DNA of 64,000 bases from Natronosalvus amylolyticus (GTDB lineage: Archaea > Halobacteriota > Halobacteria > Halobacteriales > Natrialbaceae). The translations under genes were made by a program, and so were the position numbers. The stretch spans positions 3,224,001 through 3,288,000 of the forward strand of contig NZ_CP101156.1 of the NCBI RefSeq assembly GCF_024298845.1. The letters are read 5' to 3'. The notes under the pieces were generated by a model, which made no database searches, was not told the origin of the DNA, and worked only from the letters and a program-made list of their open reading frames with translations. Positions 39,989 through 52,481 of this stretch are shown here, in pieces (the stretch's first letter is position 1; each line of letters begins with the position of its first letter).

Positions 39989-39995
39989 GTACTGT

Positions 39996-40114
39996 CTCGA
40001 GTCCAGACACTCACCGACTCAGCTCGTACTCGAGTCCAGACACTCACCGACTCAGCTCGTACTCGAGTCCAGACACTCACCGACTCAGCTCGTACTCGAG
40101 TCCAGACACTCACC
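39996..40114. repeat. 33-bp tandem repeat, about 3.6 copies
   Basis: Units starting CTCGAGTCCAGACACTCACC recur at 39996, 40029, 40062 and 40095 with essentially no divergence; the last copy is truncated after about 20 bp. Period 33 is divisible by 3, so frames stay open through it, but no gene uses them. It lies right behind the PAP2 stop and ends before the next glycosyltransferase's TATA box (about 40157-40164). Confidence 0.9.
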
Positions 40115-40188
40115 TCCGTCAGACCCTGCAGCCACGCCAGCCGCCGAAATCGCCACTGCTTAACGCTGTGAGCGAAAACCGCCAGCCA

Positions 40189-43582: not shown

Positions 43583-45541
43583 ATGGACCGAGAGACTGTC
43601 GACGAGGCGACAGGCGTCACGCGACAGTCACCGCCGTCGTCGTTCCTCGAGGGAGCCAACGTCACCGACGGGTCGATCAGGGAGACGTTTGCGAGCGAGT
43701 GGCCCGAGTGCTGGGACCGAGCGGGCGCGTCCCTCGACTGGATGGAACCCTACTCGAGCGTCCTCGACGAGCGAAACCCGCCGTTTTATCGCTGGTTTCC
43801 GGATGGGACGCTCAACGCCTCTTATAACTGTCTGGATCGCCACCTCGAGTCGGGGCGAAAGAATCACGCGGCGATCAGGTGGGAGGGAAAAGACGGCGAA
43901 CGTCGTACCTACACCTATCGGGAACTGTTCGTCGAGGTAAACGAGTGTGCGGCCGCCCTGCGAGCGCTGGGTGTGGGCGAAGACGACGTGGTGACGATTT
44001 ACTTGCCGATGATCCCCGAACTGCCGATCGCGATGCTCGCGTGTGCCCGGCTTGGCGCACCGCATTCGGTCGTGTTTGCGGGCCTGTCTGCTGCCGCGCT
44101 CGCTACGCGGATGGAGGCTGCAGACAGCGAGTACCTGATTACCTGTGATGGGTACTACCGTCGTGGCGATGCGTTCAACCAGAAGAGCAAAGCGGACAAT
44201 GCCCGGTTCTCGATCGAGACCGACGTGACGACCGTCGTGGTCGACCGACTCGGCGAGGCGCTCCCGCACGTCCTCGGGGACGGCGAACACGATTACGGCG
44301 ATCTGCTCGAGGCCCACTCGAGGGAAACGGTCGAGCCGGTTCCTCGAGACGCCGAGGACATGCTGTTTTTGATGTACACGTCGGGGACGACGGGCGAACC
44401 CAAAGGAGTCGTCCACTCGACGGGTGGCTATCTCGCCTACGCCGCCTGGACGAGCCAGGCCGTACTCGATATCAAACCGGATGACACCTACTGGTGTGCG
44501 GCCGATATCGGCTGGATTACGGGCCACAGCTACATCGTCTACGGGCCGCTCGCACTCGGGACGACCACGGTGATGTACGAGGGGACGCCCGATTATCCCG
44601 ACCGTGACCGCCTCTGGGAGATCGTCGAACGGATGGCCGTCGACGTCTTTTATACCGCACCGACGGCTGTTCGGGCGTTCATGAAGTGGGGAACGGAGTA
44701 TCCGGACGCTTACGATCGCTCGAGTCTACGCTTGCTCGGGACGGTGGGCGAGCCGATCAACCCGCGTGCCTGGCAGTGGTACCGTGATCACATCGGCGAT
44801 GGCGAGTGCCCCATCGTCGACACCTGGTGGCAGACCGAAACCGGCGGGATCACCATCTCGACACTGCCGGGGGTCGACGACATGAAACCCGGCGCGGCCG
44901 GTCCACCACTCCCCGGTATCGAGGTCGAGCTACTCGGCGGGGACGGCTCGTCGGTCGACGTCGGCGAACCCGGCTATCTCACCCTCACGAAACCCTGGCC
45001 CGGCATGGCCAAGACGCTGTATGACGGCGACGACCGTTTTTTCGAGGAGTACTGGAGCCAGTTTTCCGATCCCGAGGCGGACGACTGGCGCTACGCGAGC
45101 GGTGACGCCGCTCGGATGGACGACGACGGCTATCTGACGATTCTGGGCCGGGTCGACGACGTGATCAACGTCGCGGGCCGGCGATTCAGCACGATGGAAA
45201 TCGAGAGCGCTATCGTCGGCGTCGATGGCGTCGCCGAGGCGGCGGTCGTCGGCGGGCCCGACGGTGCAGCGGTGTACGCTTACGTGAGCACCGAGGGGCA
45301 CACCGAACCGGACGACGCTATCGAGTCCCGCGTTATCGACGCCGTGGAGACGGCTATCGGCCCGATCGCTCGTCCGGAACGGATCGTGTTCACGCCCGAA
45401 CTGCCGAAGACCCGGTCGGGAAAGATCATGCGCCGACTGCTCGAGGACGTGACCAACGGCGAATCGTTGGGTGACACGAGCGCGTTGCGGAACCCGGAAA
45501 TCGTCGGGGAGATACAGTCGGCCATCGGGACTCGAGACTGA
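43583..45541 (+). CDS. acs: AMP-forming acyl/acetyl-CoA synthetase (paralogue 1)
   Basis: 652 aa. Activates acetate or a related short acid with ATP and CoA. Adenylation motifs: MYTSGTTGEPKGVVHSTGG, YGPLALGTTTVMYEGTPDYP, TWWQTETGG, and the C-terminal catalytic K614 in PKTRSGKIMRR. It differs from canonical Acs in the mobile C-domain: INVAGRRFSTMEIE instead of the usual VSGHRLGT(M/A)E, and GGPDGAAVYAYV lacks the usual DxxKG loop. Substrate may therefore differ from the next paralogue. Read in the same direction as the regulator and second acs. Confidence 0.92.
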   Translation: MDRETVDEATGVTRQSPPSSFLEGANVTDGSIRETFASEWPECWDRAGASLDWMEPYSSVLDERNPPFYRWFPDGTLNASYNCLDRHLESGRKNHAAIRWEGKDGERRTYTYRELFVEVNECAAALRALGVGEDDVVTIYLPMIPELPIAMLACARLGAPHSVVFAGLSAAALATRMEAADSEYLITCDGYYRRGDAFNQKSKADNARFSIETDVTTVVVDRLGEALPHVLGDGEHDYGDLLEAHSRETVEPVPRDAEDMLFLMYTSGTTGEPKGVVHSTGGYLAYAAWTSQAVLDIKPDDTYWCAADIGWITGHSYIVYGPLALGTTTVMYEGTPDYPDRDRLWEIVERMAVDVFYTAPTAVRAFMKWGTEYPDAYDRSSLRLLGTVGEPINPRAWQWYRDHIGDGECPIVDTWWQTETGGITISTLPGVDDMKPGAAGPPLPGIEVELLGGDGSSVDVGEPGYLTLTKPWPGMAKTLYDGDDRFFEEYWSQFSDPEADDWRYASGDAARMDDDGYLTILGRVDDVINVAGRRFSTMEIESAIVGVDGVAEAAVVGGPDGAAVYAYVSTEGHTEPDDAIESRVIDAVETAIGPIARPERIVFTPELPKTRSGKIMRRLLEDVTNGESLGDTSALRNPEIVGEIQSAIGTRD

Positions 45542-45632
45542 TTTCGCCATACCAAATACTACGAAACGGCTATTCGACCTGTTACTCCAATTTCACCGCC
45601 ATTCTGGTCGCTATCGCCGTCAAGAGCAACAT

Positions 45633-45641
45633 CTTTATTTT
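45633..45641 (+). promoter_or_regulatory. TATA box of the recombinase-like regulator gene
   Basis: CTTTATTTT, centred about 28 bp before ATG 45665. Confidence 0.55.
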
Positions 45642-45664
45642 CGAGCTACTCGATATCGCGAAAC

Positions 45665-47515
45665 ATGAACGGCCACGACTCGAGTGAGGGTCCGCTCGAT
45701 TCGACGGGATACGACGCGATTCTCGACGGGGCAGACACTTTTCGAGAGGCACTGGTCGTTCGCCTGTGCGGCGAAGTCGGCTTGCGCCCGGCAGAAATCG
45801 CAGCCCTGACGCCCGATTGTCTGCGGCTTCTGCAGGAGGAACCGCCACGGTATGGGCTGGACGTCCGGATGGTCGACCACGGCGGACCGTCGGCTTCACG
45901 AGAGGTGGACCGAACGGCCTACGTCCCGGTTGACCTCGAACGATCGCTACGACGGTACGCGACCAGCAACGATATCGGCGGAGATTCGCGCCTGTTTCCA
46001 GTGACGCCACGACGCCTCCAGATGCTGGTCTCCGAGGTGACCACTCGTGCAAGCGAGAAATACGATAATCCGTCGCTCGAGACCGTCTCCTCGAGTGAAT
46101 TACGCCGGTATTTCGCCCGACAGGCGCTGGTGGAACACGAGATCAACCCGCGAGTGGTCAAAGCCGTTGGCGGGTGGCACAGTTTCGAGGCGCTCGAGCC
46201 GTACCTCGAGCCGCCGACAGCCGACCGAATCGTCGGCGCGTTCGCCCCTCTCGAGCCTGCGAGCCAGGGGGCTGCTGTCGGCGGGAATCGAACCCCCCAA
46301 ACTCCCGATGACGAAACTGGGGGTGGCGGTACCGCCGATTCGGCGTTCGACCCACGCGAGTGCCACCAGTCGCTGACGACAGCGCTTCTGGAGGCACCGA
46401 CCCACGAAGGTATCGAGACCGCTGTCTGTGACGTCCTCACCGACTTTGCCTACGAACTCGCGTGGATAGATCGGTCGACCATTTCGGGTGACAGTCGAGA
46501 GCAGCGGACCGTTAGCGGCGAACCCGAGGAACTGATCGAGGCAGCAGGGGTACGAGTCGACGGTCCTGGCTCCGATATCGAGGCCCCTTCTCTCGAGTCG
46601 AACGTGAGGATAGAGCGCGATAGCGTCGCGGACTCGACGCTCGAGGGCGGGATCGCCACGATACCGATTCTCTACGGCGATTCCGTCTACGGCGTTCTCG
46701 GCGTCGGAACCGAGCGGCCGAACGCGTTTGGGGAAGACGAACGTGCCTGGCTCGAAACCGTCGCTCGTCAGGTCGGGCACGCTATCGCGGCCGTCCGTCG
46801 CCGGAACCTCCTCTTTTCGGATACCGTCGTCGAACTCGAGTTCCACTCGCGAGACAGCCGGTCGTTTTTCGTCGACACCTCGCGAGCGCTCGAGTGTCGC
46901 TTCGCGCTCGATTCACTGGTGCCGGTCGAAGAGGGAACACACCTCTATTACATGCGCGTTACGGGCACCACGCCCGACGCCGTGTTCGATCGGGTTGCCA
47001 ACACCGAGCGGATCCAGGATTGCCGGGTTATCGACACCTACGAAGATGGCAGCCGCCTCGAGTTCGTCGTCTCCGGGGCGTCACCGACTCTGACACTGAT
47101 GGAGTACGGTGTGACGATTCTCGAGTCGGTGACCGAAGCCGGGTCCACGACGATCACCGCCGAGTGTGCGAGCGACACGGATATTCGGACCATCGTGGGC
47201 GGCCTTCGCCGATCCTTCCCTGACTCGGAACTGGTCAGCAAACGAACGCTCGAGCGGTCGGTACAGACTGCACAGGCGTTCCACACGGGCCTCGAGGAGC
47301 GATTGACGGACCGTCAGGAGGCCTCGCTTCGGGCGGCGTACTTCGGCGGGTACTACGACTGGCCGCGGGAGAGTACGGCCGAAGAAATCGCCGACGCGAT
47401 GGGTGTCTCCTCCCCGACGCTACACAACCATCTCCGGAAGGGACAACACGAACTCCTACGGACGTTTTTTGACGCCGACACGGTCGAAGAGCCCTCGAGG
47501 CGCAGTTCTCGGTGA
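45665..47515 (+). CDS. Regulator: tyrosine-recombinase-like domain fused to GAF and HTH-10
   Basis: 616 aa. Residues 1-195 have a tyrosine-recombinase fold: GEVGLRPAEIAALTPDCL (R41), then ELRRYFARQALVEHEINP (R147), W171 in GGWHSF and Y180 in EALEPYL; the His of HxxR is Ser144. Next come a GAF domain (about 225-375), a bacterio-opsin-activator domain (about 385-540) and a C-terminal HTH-10 (STAEEIADAMGVSSPTLHNHL). The N-terminal module may recognise DNA rather than recombine it. Its position between two acs genes implies regulation of acetate metabolism. Leaderless-type TATA 28 bp upstream. Confidence 0.85.
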   Translation: MNGHDSSEGPLDSTGYDAILDGADTFREALVVRLCGEVGLRPAEIAALTPDCLRLLQEEPPRYGLDVRMVDHGGPSASREVDRTAYVPVDLERSLRRYATSNDIGGDSRLFPVTPRRLQMLVSEVTTRASEKYDNPSLETVSSSELRRYFARQALVEHEINPRVVKAVGGWHSFEALEPYLEPPTADRIVGAFAPLEPASQGAAVGGNRTPQTPDDETGGGGTADSAFDPRECHQSLTTALLEAPTHEGIETAVCDVLTDFAYELAWIDRSTISGDSREQRTVSGEPEELIEAAGVRVDGPGSDIEAPSLESNVRIERDSVADSTLEGGIATIPILYGDSVYGVLGVGTERPNAFGEDERAWLETVARQVGHAIAAVRRRNLLFSDTVVELEFHSRDSRSFFVDTSRALECRFALDSLVPVEEGTHLYYMRVTGTTPDAVFDRVANTERIQDCRVIDTYEDGSRLEFVVSGASPTLTLMEYGVTILESVTEAGSTTITAECASDTDIRTIVGGLRRSFPDSELVSKRTLERSVQTAQAFHTGLEERLTDRQEASLRAAYFGGYYDWPRESTAEEIADAMGVSSPTLHNHLRKGQHELLRTFFDADTVEEPSRRSSR

Positions 47516-47656
47516 GTCCCTGTATCCTGGAGAATTTCGTATGCGCGCTTCGGCCGTATTCTAAGCTTCTAGAGCGCCCATCGAATTCGAACCTCCACAC
47601 TTTGTACACCTAGATTCGGTATTTACCCCGTTACTACTACACTGGTATACTGTCAC

Positions 47657-49630
47657 ATGTCACAGGAAGAACCGGCCCTCGAGGCGCGACTTGCTGACGG
47701 AGAGAGCTACGAACCACCACAGTCGTTCGTCGAGCAAGCGAACGTGTCGGACCCGGCGATTTACGACGAGTTCGAAGAGCACTGGCCCGAGTGCTGGGAA
47801 CGAGCCGCCGATCTGGTCTCGTGGTCCGAAGAGTACGACACGGTCCTCGAGGAGGACGATGCACCGTTCTACCGATGGTTCACCGGCGGCGAGCTCAACG
47901 CGTCGTACAACTGTCTGGACCGCCACGTCGAGGAGGGGCGAAAGAACCAGGCGGCGATCAAGTGGGAGGGCGAACTCGGCGAGACGCGCACCTACACGTA
48001 CGGCGACCTGCTGAACGAGGTCGAGGCGTTCGCCGCCGGATTGCGGGAGCTGGGCGTCGAGGAGGACGACGTCGTCACGCTGTACATGCCGATGATCCCC
48101 GAACTCCCGATCGCGATGCTGGCGTGTGCGCGTCTGGGCGCGCCGCACTCGGTCGTTTTCGGCGGCTTCTCGGCGGATGCGTTGGCGACGCGGATGAACG
48201 CGGCAGACAGCGAGTATCTGGTCACCTGTGACGGCTACTACCGCCGTGGCGACGCGCTCGATCACCTCTCGAAGACCAACGACGGTCTCGCCGACGTCGA
48301 ACACGGCGTCGACACCGTCGTCGTCGACCGACTGGGGGACGAACGCTCTCACAATTTGACCGAAAGCCAGCACGATTACGGCGAACTCGTGGCCGCCCAC
48401 GAGGGCGCATCGGTCGAGCCGGTCGCTCGAGACGCCGAAGACATGCTGTTTTTGATGTACACGTCGGGGACGACGGGGCAGCCGAAGGGCGTCAAGCACA
48501 CGACGGGGGGCTACCTCTCGTACGCGGCGTGGACGAGCCACGCGGTCTTGGACATCAAACCGGAGGACACCTACTGGTGTGCGGCCGACATCGGCTGGAT
48601 TACGGGCCACAGCTACATCGTCTACGGGCCGCTGACGCTCGGGACGACGACGATGATGTACGAGGGGACGCCCGACTACCCGGAGAAAGATCGCCTGTGG
48701 GAACTCATCGAGAAAAACCGCGTCGACATCTTCTACACCGCACCGACGGCCATCCGCGCGTTCATGAAATGGGGCAAACAGTACCCCGAAAGCCACGACC
48801 TCTCGAGTCTTCGCCTGCTCGGCACCGTAGGCGAGCCGATCAACCCCCGCGCGTGGCAGTGGTACTACGACACCATCGGTGGCGGCGAGTGCCCGGTCGT
48901 CGACACCTGGTGGCAGACCGAAACCGGCGGCATGATGATCACCACGCTCCCCGGCATCGGGGAGATGAAACCCGGCGCGGCCGGACCGCCACTGCCGGGT
49001 GTCGACGCGAGGATCGTCGACGCTGCTGGCAACGACGTCGATCCCGGAAACGCGGGCTACCTGACCGTCCAGAAACCCTGGCCAGGCATGCTCCGCACGC
49101 TATACAACAACGATGACCGCTTCCTCAACGAGTACTGGCGCGAGTACTCCGACGAAAACGCCGACGAGTGGGTCTACTTCCCCGAAGACGGTGCGAAAGT
49201 CGACGAGGACGGCTACATCACCATCCTCGGACGCGTCGACGACGTGATCAACGTCTCCGGCCACCGTCTCGGGACGATGGAGATCGAAAGCGCCATCGTC
49301 GGCGTCGAAGGGGTCGCCGAAGCCGCCGTCGTCGGCGGCGACCACGAGATGAAAGGCAAAGCCGTCTACGCCTACGTCATCCCGGAAGACGGCTACGAAG
49401 ACAGCGACGATCTCGAGGCCAGAATCGTCGAGGGCGTCGAAGAGGGTATTGGGCCGATCGCTCGCCCCGAAGCGGTCGTCGTCACTCCCGAACTACCCAA
49501 AACCCGCTCGGGAAAAATCATGCGTCGACTGCTCGAGGACATCGCTTCCGGCAACGAACTGGGCAACACCTCGACGCTCCGGAACCCCGAAATCGTCGAG
49601 GAAATCGCCGCACAGGTAGAAAACGAGTGA
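47657..49630 (+). CDS. acs: Acetyl-CoA synthetase, AMP-forming (paralogue 2)
   Basis: 657 aa, with the full canonical motif set: MYTSGTTGQPKGVKHTTGG, YGPLTLGTTTMMYEGTPDYP, TWWQTETGGMMITTLPG, NVSGHRLGTMEIESAIVG, DHEMKGKAVYAYV and K620 in PKTRSGKIMRR (the usual acetylation/catalytic Lys). It converts acetate to acetyl-CoA. Very similar to paralogue 1 throughout, so the pair probably arose by duplication. An AT-rich GGTATTTACC box lies near 47618-47627. Followed by the acetate-type symporter genes. Confidence 0.96.
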   Translation: MSQEEPALEARLADGESYEPPQSFVEQANVSDPAIYDEFEEHWPECWERAADLVSWSEEYDTVLEEDDAPFYRWFTGGELNASYNCLDRHVEEGRKNQAAIKWEGELGETRTYTYGDLLNEVEAFAAGLRELGVEEDDVVTLYMPMIPELPIAMLACARLGAPHSVVFGGFSADALATRMNAADSEYLVTCDGYYRRGDALDHLSKTNDGLADVEHGVDTVVVDRLGDERSHNLTESQHDYGELVAAHEGASVEPVARDAEDMLFLMYTSGTTGQPKGVKHTTGGYLSYAAWTSHAVLDIKPEDTYWCAADIGWITGHSYIVYGPLTLGTTTMMYEGTPDYPEKDRLWELIEKNRVDIFYTAPTAIRAFMKWGKQYPESHDLSSLRLLGTVGEPINPRAWQWYYDTIGGGECPVVDTWWQTETGGMMITTLPGIGEMKPGAAGPPLPGVDARIVDAAGNDVDPGNAGYLTVQKPWPGMLRTLYNNDDRFLNEYWREYSDENADEWVYFPEDGAKVDEDGYITILGRVDDVINVSGHRLGTMEIESAIVGVEGVAEAAVVGGDHEMKGKAVYAYVIPEDGYEDSDDLEARIVEGVEEGIGPIARPEAVVVTPELPKTRSGKIMRRLLEDIASGNELGNTSTLRNPEIVEEIAAQVENE

Positions 49631-49893
49631 GCGGCGGTCGGGCAACATGAGTGGTTCGATACGCCTGTACGCGTGACTGAGTGCGTCGACACCTGACGGA
49701 GTACTGAGTCACGGGTTGGCCGTGTCGATGCCGGTGCACCCACGTTTTCGACCGACGCTCAGACCGCTACAGAACGGGATTCGTGACAGGACCTCGGGCC
49801 ACATCACGAAAATCCCGAGTCAAGTCACGCCACACTCGAGCGATTCCATGACACGAACACAGGACATTCCGACAGACGGTGACGAACACAGTT

Positions 49894-50313
49894 ATGACAG
49901 AGAATAACAGCCACGAAACGACGGACGACGGTGCGAACGCCCTCGAGACGGATGGGGGTGTCAGCACTGACGCCTATCTCGACAACGAGATCAATATCTT
50001 CAAACCGGCGACACCGTTCATGCGGGACCACCTACTGGTCATCTGGGCTGCGTTTTTCGCCTGGATACTCGTCGTATTCGGCCCCGTTACGGGTGCGCTC
50101 CTCGCGCCCGAGATATTCGTCGAAACGACGGTTCTCGGCGGTTTCCCACTGCACTTCTTCCTGGCGGCCATCGTCACCCCACTGGGAGCGCTGGTCCTGT
50201 CGGTCGCGTATGCGATCCAGCGTGACCGACTCGATACGAAATACGGCATCGAACACGAGACGGAGACGGCGGAGGACGCGGGAACCGTCGCGGCTGACGG
50301 AGGTGACCAATGA
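49894..50313 (+). CDS. DUF4212 small subunit of a sodium:solute symporter
   Basis: 139 aa. Two membrane helices (about 45-68 and 82-105) with the family's INIFKPATPFMRDHLLVIWA ahead of the first. DUF4212 proteins pair with SSS-family transporters such as acetate permeases. The stop overlaps the next gene's start by 4 bp (ATGA). ATG 49894 is chosen over GTG 49879. The first 35 residues are acidic and disordered. Confidence 0.9.
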   Translation: MTENNSHETTDDGANALETDGGVSTDAYLDNEINIFKPATPFMRDHLLVIWAAFFAWILVVFGPVTGALLAPEIFVETTVLGGFPLHFFLAAIVTPLGALVLSVAYAIQRDRLDTKYGIEHETETAEDAGTVAADGGDQ

Positions 50314-52013
50314 TCGGTGGGTTCGCCGGCTTGCTCGAGCCAACCCTCCTGCAGTTGCCGTTCGATCCAGTGACGCTCGAGACGGCGCTCGACGTCGGTG
50401 AGTTCAAGCTCATTCCGGCGTTGACGGTCGCGCTCATGCTGGCGCTGTTCCTCGGCGTCGGCTACTTCTTCCGGGTGGCCGCAGTCGACGAGCTGTGGGT
50501 CGCCGGCCGCTCGATTGGCAGCATCGAGAACGGGATGGCTATCGGCGCGAACTGGATGAGTGCTGCCTCGTATCTGGGTGTTGCCGCACTGGTCGCGACG
50601 GCCGGCTACTTCGGCCTGGCGTACGTCGTCGGCTGGACGACGGGCTATTTCATCCTGCTCATCTTCATGGCCGCGCAGTTCCGTCGGTTTGGCAAGTATA
50701 CCGCACCCGACTTCGTCGGCGACCGGTTTTACTCCGACTGGGCCCGCGGCATCGCCGCGTTCACGACGCTCGCCATCGCGTTCACCTACGCCATCGGGCA
50801 GGCCAGCGGGATGGGGCTGATGGCCCAGTACATCTTCGGTATCTCGTACGAAGCCGGGGTCATCCTGTTGATGGGCGTTACCATCGGCTACGTCGCCCTC
50901 TCGGGCATGCTCGGGACGACGAAGAACATGGCCATCCAGTACGTCATCCTGATCATCGCGTTCACGCTCGGACTGTACGCGACGGGCTGGAGTCAGGGCT
51001 GGTCGACGGTGTTGCCCTACCTCGAGTTCGGCCCCGAAGTAGCCGAAGCGGCGAGCATCGAGGCACAGTTCATCGAACCGTTCGCCAACGCGGGCTACTA
51101 CGCCTGGGTCGCCCTTGCGTTCAGCCTGATCGTCGGCACCTGCGGGCTGCCACACGTGCTCGTTCGATTCTACACGGTGGACAACGAACGAACCGCTCGC
51201 TGGTCGACGGTCTGGGGACTGTTTTTCATCTGCCTGCTCTACTGGGGCACGGCGACGTACGCTGCCTGGGGCGGCCTGCTATACAACCGCGAGGTGACCG
51301 GTGGAGGTGGTTTCGCCGGCGAAGGTGGCATGTCGGGTGAGGAAGCCGACGCACTGGTCGTGTTGACGACACAGTTGGCCGACCTGCCGACCTGGCTCGT
51401 GGGCCTCGTCGCCGCTGGCGCAGTCGCGGCAGCGCTGGCAACGACGGCAGGGCTGTTCATCTCGGCGTCCTCCGCGGCCGCACACGACATCTACACGAAC
51501 CTCTACAAAGAAGACGCCACCCAGCGCGAACAGCTGATCGTCGGCCGGTCGACGATTCTCGGTATCGGCATCCTGGTGACCCTGATCGGGCTCAATCCCC
51601 CGGCACTCATCGGCGAACTCGTCGCGATGTCCTTTGCTATCGCCGGCACCGTCTTCTTCCCCGTCTTCTTCCTCGGACTCTGGTGGGAGAACACGACTCG
51701 AGAGGGTGCACTCGCCGGGATGGTCACCGGGATCGCCCTCTCCTTTGGCGCGATCCTCAACGATACCGCCATCCCGATGTACACGGGGGTCGAAGACGCC
51801 GTTATCCCGGCACTGGCAACGTGGCTCCCCGGGACATCCTCGGCACTCGTCGGGGTTCCGGTCGTGTTTGTGGTTATCATCGTCGTCTCGGTGTTCACCG
51901 CAAACCCGCCACAGGACGTCAAACGCCTCGTTCGACAGTGTCACAGCCCAGAACCGATGCGTCGAATGGAATCCGCGGAAGACGCCGCGAGCACCACCCA
52001 AGCAGATGACTGA
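50310..52013 (+). CDS. SSS-family sodium:solute symporter, acetate permease-like
   Basis: 567 aa, about 13 membrane helices. N-terminal ELWVAGRSIGSIENGMAIGANWMSAASYLG is typical of ActP-like acetate/monocarboxylate Na+ symporters; GTCGLPHVLVRFYTV and SAAAHDIYTNLYK are also conserved. It imports acetate or another carboxylate for the nearby acetyl-CoA synthetases. Coupled to the DUF4212 gene upstream, and the UspA gene begins 3 bp after its stop. Confidence 0.93.
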   Translation: MIGGFAGLLEPTLLQLPFDPVTLETALDVGEFKLIPALTVALMLALFLGVGYFFRVAAVDELWVAGRSIGSIENGMAIGANWMSAASYLGVAALVATAGYFGLAYVVGWTTGYFILLIFMAAQFRRFGKYTAPDFVGDRFYSDWARGIAAFTTLAIAFTYAIGQASGMGLMAQYIFGISYEAGVILLMGVTIGYVALSGMLGTTKNMAIQYVILIIAFTLGLYATGWSQGWSTVLPYLEFGPEVAEAASIEAQFIEPFANAGYYAWVALAFSLIVGTCGLPHVLVRFYTVDNERTARWSTVWGLFFICLLYWGTATYAAWGGLLYNREVTGGGGFAGEGGMSGEEADALVVLTTQLADLPTWLVGLVAAGAVAAALATTAGLFISASSAAAHDIYTNLYKEDATQREQLIVGRSTILGIGILVTLIGLNPPALIGELVAMSFAIAGTVFFPVFFLGLWWENTTREGALAGMVTGIALSFGAILNDTAIPMYTGVEDAVIPALATWLPGTSSALVGVPVVFVVIIVVSVFTANPPQDVKRLVRQCHSPEPMRRMESAEDAASTTQADD

Positions 52014-52016
52014 CTC

Positions 52017-52481
52017 ATGTACGATACCATCCTCATTCCCACTGACGGCAGCCAGGTTGCACAACACGCGGTCGAACACGCTATCGACATCGCCACGAAG
52101 TACGACGCCAACGTCCACACCCTGTACGTCGTCGATACCGGTGCGATGGACGTCGGCCTCGGGACCGAACAGGTCGACCGTCTCAGACAGGGTCAGTTCG
52201 GTTCGATGCCAGAAGTGCGCGAACGAGCCGAATCCGCCACGAACGCCGTCGTCGAAGCCGCTCGAGCGAGCGGCTACGACCTCGAGGTCACCGAGGCGAT
52301 CACCGCAGGGCAACCGCACCGCCAGATCGCGAGCTACGCTGACGAGCACGATGTCGACCTCATCGTGATGGGCTCTGCCGGTCGTGGTGGGATCAAACGG
52401 GCGCTGCTGGGGAGCGTCGCCGAACGGACGCTTCGAACAACCCATCTGCCGGTTCTCGTCGTCGACGTGCACGAACAATAA
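52017..52481 (+). CDS. Universal stress protein (UspA family)
   Basis: 154 aa. One Usp domain: ILIPTDGSQVAQHAVEHAID opens it, and the nucleotide-binding motif IVMGSAGRGGIKRALLGSVAE (G-2x-G-9x-GS) is intact, so ATP binding is likely. Close to the symporter (3 bp), as in many haloarchaeal transporter-Usp pairs where the Usp may regulate transport. Confidence 0.94.
   Translation: MYDTILIPTDGSQVAQHAVEHAIDIATKYDANVHTLYVVDTGAMDVGLGTEQVDRLRQGQFGSMPEVRERAESATNAVVEAARASGYDLEVTEAITAGQPHRQIASYADEHDVDLIVMGSAGRGGIKRALLGSVAERTLRTTHLPVLVVDVHEQ

Follow-up and report, generated by a model that had tools for sequence, protein, structure and literature searches.

The locus discussed here lies in a stretch of 64,000 nucleotides from Natronosalvus amylolyticus, which we call the window and whose positions we use for all coordinates (Table 1). 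The locus contains a gene for a probable regulator of 616 amino acids, placed between two genes that both encode acetyl-CoA synthetases (acs), each with AMP-binding, AMP-binding_C and ACAS_N domains. An initial reading made from the DNA letters only (hereafter the sequence-only reading) had described the protein as a tyrosine-recombinase fold fused to GAF, Bat and HTH-10 domains, lying between two acs genes. The Pfam matches agree with this description: the BAT domain is matched at E 4e-47, HTH_10 at E 2e-17 and GAF_2 at E 3e-9, each scoring over its cut-off, and BAT (PF15915) with a C-terminal HTH_10 (PF04967) is present in all 44 orthologues searched. In a model of the full-length regulator, confidence is low for the way the domains are arranged and for the HTH_10. 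In 40 of the 44 orthologues a PAS domain also separates the recombinase-like part from the GAF part. It is absent from the window protein (the region of residues ~200-232) and, judged by length, from L001-L003, which suggests that the sensed signal may have changed in these proteins. Elsewhere in the window, at about 39990-40115, an antisense open reading frame contains four SVWTRVRAE-like units, a sign of a short tandem DNA repeat just upstream of a glycosyltransferase gene.

Table 1. Features of the acetate locus in window coordinates, with the basis of each assignment
Feature	Position	Strand	Basis
Upstream acs (acetyl-CoA synthetase gene)	43583..45541	+	domain matches
Dyad 1, TTTCG-N15-CGAAA, directly 3' of upstream acs stop codon; proposed distal operator	45542..45566	+	sequence conservation
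TATA-like box of regulator gene, CTTTATTT, abuts dyad 2	45633..45640	+	by sequence
Dyad 2, TTTCG-N15-CGAAA, TATA box to 1 bp before regulator ATG; proposed proximal operator	45639..45663	+	sequence conservation
Int-Bat regulator gene, 616 aa (recombinase-like + GAF + BAT + HTH_10)	45665..47515	+	ORF and Pfam
Tyrosine-recombinase catalytic fold, N-terminal, residues ~1-199, catalytically incomplete	45665..46261	+	Pfam, AlphaFold2, Foldseek, profile, alignment
GAF-like sensor domain	46352..46816	+	Pfam GAF_2 match, residues 322-375; limits inferred from full-length model
BAT domain, residues 386-540	46820..47284	+	Pfam
HTH_10 DNA-binding domain, residues 547-598	47303..47458	+	Pfam
UAS-like element TTTGTACACCTAGA upstream of second acs; candidate HTH_10 site	47601..47614	+	sequence conservation
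TATA-like box of second acs, TATTTACC	47620..47627	+	sequence
Downstream (second) acs (acetyl-CoA synthetase gene)	47657..49630	+	domain matches
DUF4212, small subunit of acetate symporter	49879..50313	+	domain matches
Sodium:solute symporter, ActP-like acetate permease	50310..52013	+	domain matches
Universal stress protein gene, conserved cluster end	52017..52481	+	domain matches

The Phage_integrase match in the window protein (residues 17-181, E 3e-5) reaches 24.2 bits, which is below the Pfam cut-off of 27.1. All 44 Natrialbaceae orthologues match the same domain at E <= 0.001, the best of them at 1e-13. AlphaFold2, run on residues 1-200 with an alignment of 44 rows, gave a model with pLDDT 88 and pTM 0.86. 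Among PDB entries Foldseek ranks archaeal XerA (4a8e, E 3e-5) first, then Tn1549 Int and Cre, with MrpR and YopR lower down, and a sequence profile search also matched XerA 4a8e at E 9e-8. Because the orthologue Pfam matches, the AlphaFold2 model, the Foldseek result and the XerA profile match all point the same way, we regard the tyrosine-recombinase catalytic fold of the N-terminal domain as well supported, and the structure prediction that the sequence-only reading had proposed as a check comes out in its favour. In the model the fold begins at residue ~13 and ends at ~196, with no N-terminal core-binding (SAM-like) domain; the stand-alone relatives, of about 200 amino acids, are likewise too short to hold one.

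It had further been noted that R41, R147, W171 and Y180 are present in the window protein and that Ser144 replaces the His of the HxxR motif. Indeed, all of this is seen in our alignment; what had been overlooked is that the catalytic Lys of the beta-hairpin is absent as well. We compared the catalytic residues in 81 Natrialbaceae orthologues, in 46 fused proteins of other families and in stand-alone relatives (16, and a wider non-redundant set of 57). The complete R-K-H-R-W-Y set is found in none of the 127 fused proteins, whereas every one of the stand-alone relatives has it (16/16 and 57/57). The hairpin Lys is lost in all fused proteins; one Natrialbaceae row has a Lys, but only in an unrelated long loop. 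As to the two residues whose conservation had been put in question, Tyr180 is kept in 80 of the 81 Natrialbaceae orthologues, but position 144 is variable, being Ser in 70 and otherwise G, R, D, N or A. R41 is found in 79 of these orthologues, and R147 and W171 in all 81. In the other families R147 is present in 46/46 fused proteins, W171 in 43/46 and R41 in 40/46, position 144 is Arg in 23 and His in 6, and Tyr180 is kept in 27 and lost in 19. Taken over all fused proteins, position 144 is occupied by S, R, G, H, Q, A, D, N or T. The loss of Lys throughout, the variability of position 144 and the loss of Tyr180 in 19 of 46 proteins speak against the conditional strand breakage that had been suggested. 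Judging from these residues, strand breakage by the fused proteins is unlikely, and their recombinase-like domain appears to be a catalytically incomplete, retained module.

Another part of the domain is conserved without exception. R116 and R117 are invariant in 127 of 127 fused proteins, and Q119 and M120 are found in nearly all of them; this motif is poorly shared by the stand-alone proteins. It sits in residues 115-132 of the predicted model, a helix whose counterpart in Cre and Xer makes contact with DNA.

The recombinase-like domain has a match in 301 of 391 sampled Halobacteria genomes. Where a locus has enough flank, the fused gene adjoins acs with few exceptions. Both the fusion and its linkage to acs extend through the class. 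The usual gene order is acs-regulator-acs-DUF4212-SSF symporter-Usp; the same order, again with twin dyads, is found in Haloferax alexandrinus. In loci L002-L043 the DUF4212/SSF acetate symporter falls into two diverged groups, one with about 55-62% and the other with 73-93% identity to that of the window, and both occur in otherwise conserved acs-pair loci, which suggests that the acetate transporter was replaced in some of them. Within its own genome, which has 24 BAT-domain matches, the recombinase-like profile matches the window gene only. Stand-alone integrase genes are not located at acs, and a search of phage records returned no match to a stand-alone integrase; one apparent stand-alone protein, L139, is actually a fused gene cut by the end of a contig. 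In the domain tree, one clade (99) holds the stand-alone proteins and a second (99) the Natrialbaceae orthologues. In a first tree the stand-alone clade fell within the fused rows, though not with strong support, and a single fused clade is compatible with the AU test (p 0.60), so that monophyly of the fused proteins is only permitted. The simplest account would be that a recombinase domain and a Bat protein were fused once, at an acs locus and early in Halobacteria, and that the chemistry was lost afterwards.

In the 123-bp intergenic region 5' of the regulator gene, TTTCG-N15-CGAAA occurs twice without mismatch, at a distance of about 100 bp, and the second copy fills the interval from the TATA box to the start. 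In the window alone, two exact copies would be noteworthy by their placement only, and the case rests on conservation. Dyad 1 is present within one mismatch in 43 of 43 Natrialbaceae loci and is exact in 37, always with a spacer of 15, where shuffled controls gave 0.58 exact and 6.5 within one mismatch; in many loci it directly follows the acs stop codon. Outside Natrialbaceae the spacer is mostly 16, and 45 of 46 loci have at least one dyad within one mismatch, 33 of them two. Both dyads are found within two mismatches in 123 of 127 fused genes, a count that includes close relatives. Of the 19 loci in which the fused protein no longer has Tyr180, 18 keep an exact dyad, in line with a site that is bound and not cut. 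Since dyad 2 reaches from the TATA-like box to the start codon, it would cover the transcription start if the transcript is leaderless, and by position it may well be a repressor site.

The sequence-only reading had offered DNA recognition as one role for the domain, and this part gains support from its retention, from its strong conservation (the invariant R116-R117) and from the conserved dyads upstream of the gene. It had also imagined that the protein loops the acs promoters, which does not agree with the arrangement seen here: the two dyads frame the promoter of the regulator itself, and neither the region upstream of each acs nor the regulator-acs spacer has an exact copy. A wider regulon was considered and set aside. 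The genome holds 13 exact dyads, 2 at the regulator locus and 11 elsewhere; the latter number is in the chance range for a pattern of ten bases, these copies are GC-rich, and most of the 10 that we inspected are inside long open frames. The gap between the two dyads clusters in helical phase (R 0.6 near 10.5-10.75). This phasing is suggestive only, as the fit is equally good with a period of 8.75 and many gaps are shared by descent.

The catalytically complete stand-alone relatives also have repeats in front of their genes. When one mismatch is permitted, 39 of the 57 non-redundant stand-alone genes have an upstream inverted repeat of 9 bp or more, compared with 9.6 in shuffles and 16 downstream. 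Many of these repeats are near -108, such as CCGACTTGT-nnn-ACAAGTCGG, in which 15 bp separate the outer CG pairs, just as in the sites of the fused Natrialbaceae genes. By eye, a second and more degenerate element abuts the start codon; loci L176, L199, L122, L158 and L153 are examples of genes with both. The two elements of one stand-alone gene are alike beyond chance (p 2e-6), although modestly so, with a mean of 14.5 vs 13.4 of 24 positions. The half-sites differ from TTTCG, and the spacings vary (N15, N17 and others). In position and geometry, the stand-alone dyads match those of the fused genes, which speaks for the recombinase-like domain as the part that recognises the dyads. A possible history, to which we would give slightly less than an even chance, is a joint domestication of the recombinase and its paired core-type sites: the twin repeats flanking the promoter of a stand-alone gene would, after fusion to a Bat sensor, have become the double operator of a regulator of acetate use across the Halobacteria.

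The promoter of the second acs has an element of its own. At a fixed position, -47, most Natrialbaceae loci have TTGYACANCTAGA, followed ~7 bp later by TTTACTA; other families have a degenerate form, and the element is absent from most acs promoters that have no regulator. Because it is directly upstream of the TATA box, it occupies the place of an activator site, and we treat it as a candidate HTH_10 site. The window has two CTAGA elements upstream of the second acs, at 47567-47575 and 47601-47614, and the one beside the TATA box keeps a fixed distance in nearly all Natrialbaceae. We take ACTAG to resemble the bop UAS, a likeness that is not used as evidence here.

In our opinion, the window protein is rather likely to be a transcription regulator of the acetate locus in which a former recombinase domain, descended from a small tyrosine recombinase, has lost its cleavage chemistry and is kept as a predicted sequence-specific DNA-binding module, while HTH_10 acts on acs promoters and no DNA is cut. 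The recombinase-like domain would bind both dyads, perhaps cooperatively or by a short loop, and dyad 2, when occupied, would throttle transcription of the regulator's own gene. GAF (with PAS in most orthologues) and BAT would relay a metabolic signal, and the most likely target of HTH_10 would be the UAS-like element immediately in front of the TATA box of the second acs. Going by sequence comparison, the recombinase-like domain of the fused protein probably grips the conserved pair of dyads at its own promoter, as the intact relatives seem to do; we count in favour of this the own-promoter dyads that persist without Tyr, the invariance of R116-R117 and the stand-alone dyads. Several points go against our explanation as a whole: the half-site CGAAA is similar to CGAAC, a motif discussed below, the stand-alone half-sites and some of their spacings are different, Tyr180 is nearly always kept in Natrialbaceae, there is no exact dyad upstream of acs, and the trees permit a single fused clade rather than demonstrate it.

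A serious competitor, although we think it unlikely, is that the dyads are operators of a dimer of the C-terminal HTH_10, with the recombinase-like domain being merely a structural or dimerisation module or binding something else. HTH_10 is, after all, the canonical DNA-binding domain of Bat regulators, and in the fused family it is nearly invariant. The Bat-type regulator NarO is presumably linked to the motif CGAACATGTTCG. This motif occurs in haloarchaeal denitrification promoters, and the dyad half-site CGAAA resembles the CGAAC within it (PMC10062603). However, the stand-alone relatives have upstream dyads at matching positions and no HTH_10 at all. Nor do the dyads behave as a general site of the Bat family, as 22 of 23 paralogue genes in the same genome, whose products have related HTH_10 sequences, have none, and the remaining one has a copy with one mismatch. 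The invariance of R116-R117 in fused proteins only also implies a constrained surface on the recombinase-like domain itself.

The dyads could instead be the sites of a different regulator, or a 3' element in the transcript of the upstream acs, being tied to the Int-Bat gene by synteny only. The position of dyad 1 right behind the acs stop codon in many loci is what one would then expect, but dyad 2 is at the start of the regulator, and an RNA stem-loop is unlikely given that the inner dyad positions are not complementary, pairing no more than shuffled columns. Furthermore, in 15 genomes that have acs without the regulator as neighbour, no exact dyad is found up- or downstream of acs (0/15), and 4/15 have one within one mismatch, which is about chance. 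Hence we judge this reading improbable. We give very little credence to the notion, inherited from the sequence-only reading, that the domain can still cleave or nick DNA under some conditions by means of an altered active site. Four catalytic residues are indeed almost invariant in Natrialbaceae, and the dyads are similar in size to a dif or core-type site. Yet the fused proteins have all lost the hairpin Lys, most have lost the His and 19 of the 46 non-orthologues the Tyr, while the dyads persist; Cre, XerH and lambda Int become inactive when the Lys or Tyr is replaced (PMC10516654).

The domain architecture has already been published. Family fam30-04 of archaeal tyrosine recombinases, delimited with SiLiX at 30% identity over 60% of length, is described in the accessible part of its source as comprising larger proteins with Phage_integrase, BAT and HTH_10, some with GAF_2 (Badel et al. 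2021, PMC8371274). The window protein fits it by domain make-up, its Phage_integrase score being sub-threshold in this member alone. That part of the description covers domain make-up only, and catalytic loss, acs linkage and operator-like dyads are absent from it. A repressor with a recombinase fold is also known already, namely MrpR/YopR, the master repressor of the Bacillus prophage SPbeta (PMC10516654; PDB 8A0A, 8BJ6), which became a DNA-binding regulator without catalysis, as we propose for the window protein. MrpR keeps the Lys and Tyr and is without the first Arg and the His; unlike the window protein, it has a core-binding domain and neither sensor nor HTH_10 domains. MrpR-like repressors bind specific sites without catalysis, and what we have here, from sequence, is conserved sites that persist without the Tyr. 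Haloarchaeal regulators of the Bat and NarO/DmsR type, shown or proposed to regulate transcription, likewise combine BAT and HTH_10 with a GAF or PAS sensor, but they have no recombinase-like domain, and those of the same genome have no twin dyads. Archaeal XerA (PDB 4a8e, 5hxy) shares the catalytic-domain fold, two arginines and the tyrosine with the window protein, but it has the Lys, the His and an N-terminal core-binding domain, none of which are found in the latter.

Catalytic decay, class-wide acs linkage and paired sites were not found in the literature that we searched, which covers few subscription journals. In the papers that we read, no regulator of acetate activation in Haloferax is assigned. 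The homologous acs pair of H. mediterranei, HFX_5129/HFX_5131, is induced about threefold on acetate (PMC11784441), and the passages of that paper that we searched contain no mention of the gene between them; a literature search for HFX_5130 returned nothing.

The protein is apparently a clear example of how an enzyme that recombines DNA became a regulator of host metabolism in archaea, and the survival of catalytically intact relatives, together with matching DNA sites, allows the two to be compared. For the acetate locus it provides a binding-site hypothesis of 25-26 bp that is testable in Haloferax. It also raises the question of what the small stand-alone integrases do with the twin sites at their own promoters, which may serve as a recombination site, in autoregulation, or both.
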